A DNA stretch of 64,000 nt from Geothrix sp. (GTDB taxonomy: Bacteria; Acidobacteriota; Holophagae; Holophagales; Holophagaceae). Every line of letters starts with the position of its first letter. The first letter of the stretch is position 1. The stretch spans positions 1,414,857 through 1,478,856 of the forward strand of contig NZ_CP126625.1 of the NCBI RefSeq assembly GCF_030219325.1, given 5' to 3'. Position numbers and translations under genes: made by a program. The notes under the pieces are model-generated. The model saw nothing but the letters and a program-made list of their open reading frames with translations, did not search any database and was not told where the DNA came from. Positions 31,443 to 45,537 of the stretch are shown here, in pieces.

Positions 31443-31527
31443 GGTTGCTCCGAAGGTAGGCCCTCAGCCTAGCGCATCGGCCGCGCGCGGGTGTCAAAGT
31501 ACCTGGGGTTCGGAGTACAGTGGACGC

Positions 31528-32628
31528 ATGCACAAGACCCTGAGCATCGGCCTCCTCTTCGGCGGGGAATCCCCCGAGCACGAAGTCTCCATCGTCACGG
31601 CCCGGGCCATCGCGGAGCACCTGGATCCGGCCCGCTTCACCGTGCGTCCCATGGGCATCGCGCGGAACGGCGTGTGGGTGGTGACCGGCGATCCCTTCGC
31701 GCGCCTGGCCGCGGGTGAGCTGCCACGGCGCAGCGACCACCCCTTCCTGCCATTGGAACAGGGGGCGGAAGCGGCGCCCCTGCCGGACCTCTTCTTCAAT
31801 GCGCTCCATGGGGCCGGCGGCGAGGACGGGCAGATCCAGGGCTACCTGGAGCTGCTGCACCGCCCCTACACCGGCGCGGGTCTGCTGGCCATGGCGGCGG
31901 GCATGGACAAGTGGATCACCAAGCGCCTGTGGGAATCCGAAGGGCTGCCCGTGGTGCCCTACGTGGGCCTCACCGAGGAACGCTGGACCCGCGAACGGGC
32001 CGTCTGCCTCGCGGACTGCGGGAAGCTGGGCCTGCCGCTGTTCGTGAAGCCCGCCAACCTGGGCAGCAGCATCGGCGTCGAGAAGGTGAAGCAGGCCGGA
32101 GACCTGGCCCCAGCCCTCGACCGGGCCTTCACCTTCGACCGCCGGGTGCTGGTGGAGCAGGGGCTGGACATCCGCGAAATCGAGGTAGCGGTGCTGGGCG
32201 GGGACGAGCCCCTGGTCTCCCAGCCCGGCGAAGTGATCGTGGCCGACGAGTTCTACACCTTCGAGGACAAGTACCTCCACGGCAAGAGCCGCACGGAGAT
32301 CCCGGCCCAGATCCCCGAGGAGCTGGCCGACCTGGTCCGCAAGCTGGCCGCCCGGGCCTTCGCGGCCTCGGATGGCCACGGCATGGCCCGGGTGGACTTC
32401 TTCCTCGAGCGGCTGACGGGACGGATTTTCCTCAATGAGCTGAACTTCATCCCCGGATTCACCAGCATCTCCATGTATCCGAAAATGATGGCGGCCAGCG
32501 GCGTGCCCTACGGGGAGCTGCTGACCCGGCTCATCCAGCTCGCCCAGGACCGGCATGCCCAGATGGCGGCCAAGCAGAAGGGTTTCCAGTCCGGCAGCAA
32601 CTGGTTCCAGGGATCTAAGAAGGCCTGA
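31528..32628 (+). CDS. ddl: D-alanine-D-alanine ligase
   Basis: A 366-residue ATP-grasp enzyme joining two D-Ala for peptidoglycan. The opening IGLLFGGESPEHEVSIVTAR is diagnostic, LFFNALHGAGGEDGQIQG follows, then KPANLGSSIGVEKV (ATP-grasp loop) and RVDFFLERLTGRIFLNELN (Mg2+ ligands). The omega-loop Tyr in FEDKYLHGKS supports D-Ala rather than D-lactate as second substrate. The ATG at 31528 begins the conserved N-terminus. A flagellar-type promoter and a small gene follow 45 bases after its stop. Confidence 0.95.
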   Translation: MHKTLSIGLLFGGESPEHEVSIVTARAIAEHLDPARFTVRPMGIARNGVWVVTGDPFARLAAGELPRRSDHPFLPLEQGAEAAPLPDLFFNALHGAGGEDGQIQGYLELLHRPYTGAGLLAMAAGMDKWITKRLWESEGLPVVPYVGLTEERWTRERAVCLADCGKLGLPLFVKPANLGSSIGVEKVKQAGDLAPALDRAFTFDRRVLVEQGLDIREIEVAVLGGDEPLVSQPGEVIVADEFYTFEDKYLHGKSRTEIPAQIPEELADLVRKLAARAFAASDGHGMARVDFFLERLTGRIFLNELNFIPGFTSISMYPKMMAASGVPYGELLTRLIQLAQDRHAQMAAKQKGFQSGSNWFQGSKKA

Positions 32629-32638
32629 TGAAAAACCG

Positions 32639-32666
32639 TCAAGTCCTACCCGGAGGCAGCCGATAG
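32639..32666 (+). promoter_or_regulatory. Sigma-28 (FliA)-like promoter
   Basis: TCAAGTCC, 12 bases, GCCGATAG. This closely fits the flagellar sigma factor consensus of several proteobacteria (TCAAG..., 11-13 bases, GCCGATA). It lies just upstream of a gene for a flagellar-rod-like protein, which strongly supports the reading. The GGAGG at 32652-32656 lies between the two boxes and is not the ribosome site. Confidence 0.65.
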
Positions 32667-33003
32667 GTTCCTCATGGACGTCGTCGGCATCGCACTCTCC
32701 GGTCTCCGCGCCTCGGGCGCAGGGCTGGCCGTGCAGGCCAGCAACGTGGCCAACCAGCTGTCGGACGGATACAAGGCCAAGCGCGTCGACCTGGTGGCTG
32801 AAGCCTCGGGGGGGGTGCGGGTGTCAGGGGTCTCTGCGGACCCCTCACCCGCCGGCCCCGCCCCCTCGAACGTCGATCTCGCCACTGAAGCCGTGCAGGG
32901 CATGGGCTTCGAGCTGATGTACAAGGCCAACCTCAAGGTCCTCAAGACCGCGGACGAGCTGGCCCAGGCCACCCTGGACCTGAAGGCGTAGGTCCTACCC
33001 GGA
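32643..33003 (+). repeat. Direct 12-base repeats flanking the mini-rod gene
   Basis: GTCCTACCCGGA occurs at 32643-32654 (inside the FliA-like promoter) and again at 32992-33003 immediately after the mini-rod stop, where it is followed by CGATAG at 33011-33016. The second copy looks like a decayed duplicate of the promoter. Confidence 0.5.
32674..32991 (+). CDS. Orphan mini flagellar rod-like protein (FlgB/FlgC-type ends)
   Basis: A 105-residue protein. Residues 1-38 (IALSGLRASGAGLAVQASNV, then ANQLSDGYKAKRV) match the N-terminal motif of flagellar rod/hook proteins, and residues 70-105 (LATEAVQGMGFELMYKANLK, then VLKTADELAQATLD) match their C-terminal coiled-coil motif. The middle is much shorter than in FlgC (about 130-150 residues in total) and contains only a small loop. 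No other flagellar gene is in the window. The sigma-28-like promoter just upstream suggests it is expressed late with the flagellar regulon, perhaps as a structural or assembly accessory. Confidence 0.78.
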   Translation: MDVVGIALSGLRASGAGLAVQASNVANQLSDGYKAKRVDLVAEASGGVRVSGVSADPSPAGPAPSNVDLATEAVQGMGFELMYKANLKVLKTADELAQATLDLKA

Positions 33004-33054: not shown

Positions 33055-34218
33055 ATGCACGCGCGCACCTGGCTCTCGGTCCTGTCGCTCCCCCTGGTGG
33101 CGGCCTTCACCCTGCCGGTGGTGCAGCAGGGCAATCCGCCGAAGCCCCAGCCGAAGGCCGGCGCGAAGGCCGCGCCCCAGGATCCCCTCGCCGGGCTCTC
33201 GGACATCCAGGACGTGCTGTCGCTGGTGCAGCAGAACTACGTGGACCCCCCCGACATGGAGAAGGTCGTCTCGGGTGGCGTCCAGGCGGTCCTGGAACGC
33301 TCCCATCCCCTGAATGCCTACCTGACCGCCGAGGACGTGCGGCTGCCCGACCCGGGCCCGGCCGAGGCCGGCCTCATCGTCGTGAAACGCGGGATCTATG
33401 GCACGGTCGTCGCCGTGACGCCCGGGGGACCCGCTGCCAAGGCGGGGCTCCAGGCCGGTGACGTCATCCGCAAGGTGGATGGCGACTCCGTGGGTCGGCT
33501 CAGCGCCTGGGCCCTGGAGCGCAAGCTGCGCGGCCCCGAAGGATCCTCCCTCGATCTCTACCGCTACAACGCCACCGGGGACCTCACCAAGACGACCATC
33601 ACGCGGCAGCGGCTGGCCCCCGGCGCCCTGACCCTCAAGCAGGGGCAGGGATCGCTGCTCCTGTCCCTGCCGGACCTTGGGCCTGGACGGGCTGAAGAAG
33701 TCCGGAAGACCCTCGCCACTGCGGATCATGGACAGACCCTGGTGCTGGATCTGCGCCAGTGCCAGAAGGGCTCCGTGGAGGAAGCCGCCTCGCTGGCCGG
33801 CCTGCTGGGCATGAAGGGCACCTTCGCCACGCTCCAGGAGGCCGGCAAGCCTGAGCGGAGCCTTGCGGTGGCAGGCTCCGGCACGCCCTTCGTCCGCCTG
33901 GCCCTCCTTGTGGGGCGCTCCACCCTCGGAGCCTCGGAGGTCCTCGCCTCCTGTCTGAAGAAGGCGGGGGTCCGCAGCTTCGGTGAGCGCACGCCGGGCC
34001 TGGGCGTGGAACGCATGCGCTTCGCCCTCAAGCAGGGCGGGGCGGTCGAACTGGTCTCCCGGCGCTGGGTGGGCCTGGGGGGCGAGAAGCTGGATCGCCA
34101 GGGCATCGTCCCGGACCAGGTGCTTCGCATGGCCGATACGGAGGATGCGCTGGCCCGCGTCATGGCGGCCCTCCAGGCCCCCCCCGCGGCACCGCCCGCC
34201 GCCGTGAAGGCCTCCTAG
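33055..34218 (+). CDS. S41-like (CtpA-type) protein with PDZ domain, catalytic residues apparently lost
   Basis: A 387-residue exported protein: signal peptide about 1-22, a helical lead-in (VLSLVQQNYVDPPDMEKVVS, as in CtpA), a PDZ domain (about 95-175; VVAVTPGGPAAKAGLQAGDV) and a C-terminal tail-processing protease fold. In active S41 enzymes the nucleophile is the second Ser of SASASE and the base is Lys in FGKG. Here the aligned sites are G292 (STLGASEV) and L316 (TPGLG). The protein is probably a binding or scaffold form rather than a protease. The YibQ-type gene starts 1 base after its stop, so the two are linked. Confidence 0.8.
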   Translation: MHARTWLSVLSLPLVAAFTLPVVQQGNPPKPQPKAGAKAAPQDPLAGLSDIQDVLSLVQQNYVDPPDMEKVVSGGVQAVLERSHPLNAYLTAEDVRLPDPGPAEAGLIVVKRGIYGTVVAVTPGGPAAKAGLQAGDVIRKVDGDSVGRLSAWALERKLRGPEGSSLDLYRYNATGDLTKTTITRQRLAPGALTLKQGQGSLLLSLPDLGPGRAEEVRKTLATADHGQTLVLDLRQCQKGSVEEAASLAGLLGMKGTFATLQEAGKPERSLAVAGSGTPFVRLALLVGRSTLGASEVLASCLKKAGVRSFGERTPGLGVERMRFALKQGGAVELVSRRWVGLGGEKLDRQGIVPDQVLRMADTEDALARVMAALQAPPAAPPAAVKAS

Positions 34219-44994: not shown

Positions 44995-45447
44995 CTACTT
45001 GTAGATGCCGCAGCCCACCATCCAGCCGTCCAGGGACTCCACGTACGAGGTCTTGGCCTCGATCTTCCCGCTCTTGGGGTTGGGGTACTTGTAGTCCACC
45101 CAGCCGCTGCCCTTGGTCTTGGCGAGGTTGATCATCTCCTGGAGGAAGAGCTTCCCGTCCGGGTCCTTCACGCCCCAGCGGTTCACGCCCACCATCTGGC
45201 TCTGGAAGCCGATGGCCTGGCAGACGCCCGCCATGTCGTAGATGAAGATGTAGAGGTCATCGCCGCTCTTCACGTGGAAGCGTCCCTGGCCTTGGTTGGT
45301 CTCCTTCAGGAGGGCGTCCTTGCCGTTCTTCTTGGCGAAGGCCACGGCCTCCTTGACGAGGGCCTGGGCCTTCGGCTTCTGATCCTGGGCCTGAAGGGTG
45401 CCGGCCAGGCAGATGGTGGCGATGGTCAGGATGGATCGCAGGTTCAT
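44995..45447 (-). CDS. Stand-alone periplasmic Cache-domain protein
   Basis: A 150-residue protein with a signal peptide (1-20; cleavage near LQAQD) and a single-Cache domain (about 35-150; 'gsgWvdYkypnP.sgkieaKtsYve' pattern with GSGWVDYKYPNPKSG). Cache domains bind small organic ligands, usually as part of chemoreceptors or kinases; here no signalling domain is attached. Whether it works as a binding protein for a separate receptor is unknown. It converges on the SDR gene with one base between stops. Confidence 0.82.
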   Translation of the reverse strand: MNLRSILTIATICLAGTLQAQDQKPKAQALVKEAVAFAKKNGKDALLKETNQGQGRFHVKSGDDLYIFIYDMAGVCQAIGFQSQMVGVNRWGVKDPDGKLFLQEMINLAKTKGSGWVDYKYPNPKSGKIEAKTSYVESLDGWMVGCGIYK

Positions 45448-45537
45448 GGCGGACTCCCCCAGGTAGGTGGTGCGCCAACCGTATCGTCCAGGCGGCCGGG
45501 GGGCTTGATTTCCGGCCCGCCCTGCCAGACTGGAGAC

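Follow-up and report, generated by a model that had tools for sequence, protein, structure and literature searches.

A solitary gene for a core-only rod/hook-type protein with a putative sigma28 promoter in Geothrix

Geothrix is a bacterium of soils and sediments (Holophagaceae, Acidobacteriota). The Geothrix genome analysed here carries a solitary gene for a 105-residue protein that, going by domain matches and a structural model, is a member of the axial superfamily of the flagellum (rod, hook and HAP proteins), consisting solely of the D0 core and the Dc hairpin. Comparison of sequences points to this fold class, to a reading frame under selection, to a conserved promoter and to retention of the gene only together with the flagellum, and both sigma28 control and a dedication to the flagellum are well supported by it. 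We lean towards reading the product as a late-made, exported, core-only axial protein, transcribed by FliA, that would serve as a minor subunit or an assembly adaptor.

The locus and its promoter

The gene lies in a 64-kb window (the whole stretch of DNA analysed, positions 1414857-1478856 of a 3.73-Mb single-contig genome; coordinates below are those of the window unless given as genome positions). The features discussed are the following:

31519..32628, + strand: ddl, D-alanine--D-alanine ligase, the upstream neighbour (domain and family matches; context only)
32639..32643, + strand: -35 box TCAAG; T, A, A and G are the same in all 32 orthologue upstreams, and the second base is C in 24 of them, A in 6 and T in 2
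32659..32665, + strand: -10 box GCCGATA; CCGA invariant, first G in 31/32, T in 29/32, last A in 27/32
32674..32991 (stop included), + strand: gene of the 105-residue D0-Dc-only rod/hook-type protein, ATG at 32674 (domain match, dN/dS, fold match)
32680..32751, + strand: predicted N-terminal D0 helix, residues 3-26, with the (A)xNVAN rod/hook motif at its end (model; A22, N24, A26 and N27 invariant)
32779..32838, + strand: Dc-like beta hairpin, residues 36-55, GGV invariant (model and alignment)
32866..32982, + strand: Flg_bbr_C match, residues 65-103, beginning at SNVD; the C-terminal D0 helix is formed by residues 69-104
33055..34218, + strand: PDZ/S41-type peptidase gene, the downstream neighbour (domain and family matches; context only)

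The nearest flagellar gene that we located, flgG, is 108 kb away, in agreement with the preliminary description, which had placed the gene far from any other flagellar gene. An exact 12-nt repeat, GTCCTACCCGGA, flanks the gene (32643-32654 and 32992-33003); its first copy falls within the spacer of the promoter, and the closest orthologue, although 98% identical, does not share it. A search against Rfam gave no match anywhere in the 64-kb window.

The two promoter boxes, TCAAG and GCCGATA, are separated by a 15-nt spacer. Allowing for either A or C at the second base and for spacers of 14 to 16 nt (TMAAG-N14-16-GCCGATA), the pattern has four matches in the 3.73-Mb genome and none in a reversed control. 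A promoter-like pattern of this kind is by itself weak evidence, because the four matches compare with approximately one expected from base composition (a hand estimate), and the other three (genome positions 110585, 455868 and 3276978) are candidate sites only. What raises the match above chance is its conservation, assessed on 32 distinct upstream sequences of orthologues from the genus. All 32 have a -35 box of the form TNAAG and a -10 box of the form [GA]CCGA followed by T or A, with a spacer of 14-15 nt and 7-8 nt between the -10 box and the ATG. Nineteen match the consensus at 12 of 12 letters, nine at 11 and four at 10, and a score of at least 10 of 12 was reached by only 7 of 960 shuffled upstreams. 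Among the orthologue upstreams the two boxes are on average 95-96% identical, while the spacer has diverged, with a mean identity of 51%.

Elsewhere in the genome, the same scoring matrix picks out good sites ahead of flgM, flgL and the second fliS, and a weaker one ahead of the first fliS; the identities of FlgM and of the second FliS were checked by Pfam. The sigma factor itself is encoded (fliA, 263.8 bits, above cut-off). The proposal of a sigma28-type promoter made in the preliminary description is thus borne out by the conservation in 32/32 upstreams, by the occurrence of the motif at flgM, flgL and fliS, and by the presence of fliA. Upstream of the two flagellin genes there is a weak sigma28-like site at best, and given these weak sites the picture of the sigma28 regulon is incomplete for this genome.

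The predicted mRNA is probably leaderless or nearly so, because the -10 box ends only 8 nt before the ATG and sigma28 promoters have a usual distance between the -10 box and the start site. A GGAGG at about 32652 falls between the two promoter boxes and is unlikely to serve this transcript as a ribosome-binding site.

Three further loci were recorded in the same genome. The window holds another sigma28-like site (TCAAG-N15-GACGATA, 45482-45508, - strand), 34 nt ahead of a gene (44995-45447, - strand) whose 150-residue product carries one Cache domain (PF17200, E 2e-21) and is possibly a chemotaxis-related sensor. A full TCAAG-N15-GCCGATA lies upstream of a gene for a 253-residue protein with repeats of the type LFDQLGQALQAGDLSAARxAFAAL (L088, genome 3276156-3276998, - strand). 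Lastly, genome positions 99939-102289 (L092, + strand) hold two near-identical tandem pairs, each composed of a short flagellin gene (about 201 residues) and a FlaG-like gene of 115 residues.

An axial protein reduced to its core

The C-terminal half of the protein matches PF06429 (Flg_bbr_C) over residues 65-103 (E 1e-7, 31.8 bits against a gathering cut-off of 23). Its N-terminal half (residues 5-56) is matched by the NCBIfam FlgE and FlgK models (best E 3e-10), far under their cut-offs, and likewise by the FlgC model. PF00460 (Flg_bb_rod) does not match the 105-residue protein and matches 8 of 13 stand-alone relatives. A confident structural model (pLDDT 89.5, pTM 0.74), built from a diverse alignment of 32 sequences of which six rows are of the FlgC family, shows a helix at residues 3-26, a hairpin at 36-55 and a second helix at 69-104; an AF2 model from the genus sequences only (pLDDT 59) has the elements in the same order. 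In a Foldseek search, proximal-rod chains come out on top (E 1.5e-7). With VIA-align, the whole protein of 105 residues superposes on FlgC (Z 14.3, 1.9 Å), skipping about 27 extra residues of FlgC, and 100-105 residues superpose on FlgG, FlgE and HAP1/hook-filament-junction chains, the Z for FlgG and FlgE being similar to that for FlgC. The earlier suggestion of a protein with both ends of the rod/hook proteins and almost no middle therefore holds, given this full-length superposition with its skipped FlgC residues.

The genome has its own FliE, FlgB, FlgC, FlgF, FlgG, FlgE and FlgK, and since this full set of rod and hook proteins is encoded separately, the 105-residue protein is an extra. 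It shares the D0 helices and the Dc hairpin with FlgC, the proximal-rod protein (TIGR01395), but reaches only 27.9 bits against that model's cut-off of 102.1, with only residues 65-103 aligned, and its gene, unlike flgC, is solitary, distant from the flagellar clusters and preceded by a late-type promoter. A recent duplication of the genome's own flgC was considered and rejected, as the profile of the small protein scores FlgE and FlgG highest within the genome and FlgC low. The D0 ends of FlgE, FlgG and FlgF (hook and distal rod) do match it in sequence, yet it has no counterpart of their D1 and D2 domains, counts 105 residues against about 250-420, and stays far under the NCBIfam cut-offs. 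With FlgK (HAP1) and FlgL it shares the late timing, a sigma28-like site being found also before flgL, and its N-terminal half matches the FlgK model (E 1.8e-9); it differs from both in having no outer domains, in a C-terminal half closer to the rod and hook proteins, and in a gene that is not beside flgM, flgK or flgL. Finally, the rod adaptor FliE is a small protein of the axis of similar length (104-106 residues), but the genome's own fliE (genome 830061-830381) stands beside flgC, and the 105-residue protein has no FliE match in NCBIfam or Pfam.

Constraint, loss and relatives elsewhere

All intact genus orthologues that we read encode exactly 105 residues, and their median dN/dS is 0.25. 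A22, N24, A26, N27, G46-G47-V48, N66-V67-D68 and Y83 are invariant in a 25-sequence alignment. These comparisons indicate that the reading frame is under selection. They bear on the idea of a remnant, that is, a rod or hook gene shortened by deletion and retained although it does little or nothing. The protein does contain only parts known from larger axial proteins, and one flagellated member of the family is without the gene; against this stand the constant length, the low dN/dS, the gene's own promoter conserved across the genus, and the fact that copies have decayed only where FlgC is gone. We regard a remnant as improbable.

An intact copy is present in 29 of 37 genus genomes, the present one included. 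Full-length FlgC occurs in 28 of these 29 carriers, the exception being a 77%-complete MAG, versus none of the eight genomes without an intact copy (Fisher 2e-7, a value that ignores kinship). The co-occurrence with flagellar loci that the preliminary description had asked about is thus found. Presence of the gene in non-flagellated relatives, which that description had named as part of a refutation, was looked for and not observed; an intact copy in a genus genome without FlgC was seen in that incomplete MAG only. Five further genomes of the genus (four with both gene and FlgC, one with neither) and other Holophagaceae (four genera with both, two with neither) give the same picture, and FlgC was present in 17/17 further carriers tested. 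The gene is not essential in the family, because a flagellated Holophagaceae genome (G307) does without it.

Seven of the eight non-carriers form one clade (support 0.997 in a tree of two neighbouring genes), in which ddl and the peptidase gene stand adjacent across a short gene-free stretch. The eighth (G005) is distant from them on the neighbour-gene tree and carries a pseudogene that stops early and has lost its C-terminus; this genome is an 85%-complete, fragmented MAG, in which the absence of FlgC is less certain. As read from these genomes, there have been two separate losses of the gene in the genus, one of them still visible as a pseudogene. The ddl-peptidase junctions of non-flagellated relatives (L072-L079) contain repeats of the kind GACAGCTGATAGCTGACAGCTGA.

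The order ddl - 105-residue gene - peptidase is conserved across the genus, which could speak for a role in the envelope together with these two neighbours, for instance where the rod crosses the cell wall, the flagellar-like promoter being secondary. However, the gene was lost with the flagellum while both neighbours were retained, it has its own flagellar-type promoter, and it is located differently in other genera and families (L102-L105). We consider such a role very improbable.

The seven Geothrix genomes without FlgC still have fliA (over 250 bits in all). In the two that we inspected, L183 (G018:C9, ~216958-218729) and L184 (G025:C7, ~195423-197248), it still adjoins an flhG-type ATPase gene, the surrounding flagellar genes being gone. 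The predicted FliA of these FlgC-less genomes must serve another regulon.

When 297 Acidobacteriota were searched with a profile, stand-alone versions came up in four other genera of Holophagaceae and in two other families (L100-L105), in several different chromosomal places. Among 398 Pseudomonadota genomes many of the matches were FlgC, FlgE, FlgG or FlgK, and some were stand-alone genes coding for D0 ends only. These stand-alone relatives are single genes of 76-116 residues with the D0 ends and no middle, and those outside the family are about 27-43% identical; most of the flagellated bacteria sampled have no gene of this type. A sigma28-like site (at least 10 of 12 letters, within 120 nt upstream) precedes 15 of 27 small genes outside the genus, versus 1 of 19 flgC genes (Fisher 4e-4; shuffles reach the same score in 2.4%), although the 27 make up about 11 sequence groups and hence represent fewer independent cases. 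The small genes outside the family may have arisen more than once. In a plasmid collection, neither the protein of the window nor that of L105 had a match; two Pseudomonadota versions matched there mostly larger axial genes or unannotated places, with no described function.

Possible roles of a putatively late-made axial protein

For the favoured reading, a minor subunit or adaptor of the axis, we infer the following course of events. FliA (sigma28) would drive the gene from the promoter directly ahead of it, giving a probably leaderless mRNA, so that synthesis would coincide with that of FlgM, FlgL and other late proteins. The product would leave the cell through the flagellar type III export channel, as other rod/hook-type subunits do, and enter the inner (D0) layer of the rod, the hook or the hook-filament junction, where it would act as a minor subunit or assembly adaptor.

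Sigma28 is freed once the hook is complete, and early-type subunits are thought to be no longer exported by then; late sigma28 timing therefore fits a rod-type subunit badly. This mismatch makes a serious rival of a brake on the export gate, in which the D0-Dc protein would remain inside the cell and fill the site for early substrates on the FlhB C-terminal domain, or bind another export component, stopping the export of rod and hook subunits. The timing suits such a regulator, as its synthesis would start when early export should end. There is also a precedent in Salmonella, where engineered or truncated early subunits that dock at FlhB and are not exported block the gate and motility (PMC10936197). 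FlgE carries a gate-recognition motif, with F39 as its first residue, and a C-terminal export signal that includes a Q/R pair (PMC10936197). Compared by eye with this C-terminal stretch, the Geothrix proteins keep E, V and Y and have the Q/R pair replaced, a loss of export-signal residues that would also favour a regulator; at the place of F39 they have leucine. Both the lost Q/R pair and the leucine can be read either way, as features of an axial subunit or of a gate brake. On the other side, both D0 ends have been preserved under constraint, as has the hairpin, beyond what a gate plug would appear to need, and most of the flagellated bacteria sampled do without the gene. We judge an export regulator to be unlikely, and continue to favour a minor subunit or adaptor of the axis.

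The preliminary description had also suggested that the protein could be novel. This stands in so far as no described function was found in the literature searched, and does not in so far as known Pfam families cover its parts and other bacteria have stand-alone versions. In the open-licence literature searched we found no description of a D0-only stand-alone rod protein, which is weak evidence of absence as synonyms were not matched. Domain and fold are already known; what we did not find described in that literature is the combination of a core-only axial protein, a solitary locus, its own late promoter and loss together with the flagellum.

In textbook flagella, rod and hook subunits are made early, and the genes for the filament, for motor torque and for chemotaxis come late. 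A rod-type protein controlled by the late sigma factor would depart from this pattern. We propose tentatively, and with rather less confidence than the axial role itself, that the Geothrix protein belongs to a widespread, unrecognised class of late core-only axial proteins, whose solitary, sigma28-driven genes are spread over at least two phyla. Such proteins may act after hook completion, either by contributing a minor subunit to the boundary between rod and hook or between hook and filament, or by restraining the export of early substrates. In the axis, a protein of this kind would be an extra component, one not seen in Salmonella-type structures; at the export gate, it would represent a new way to lock the substrate switch.
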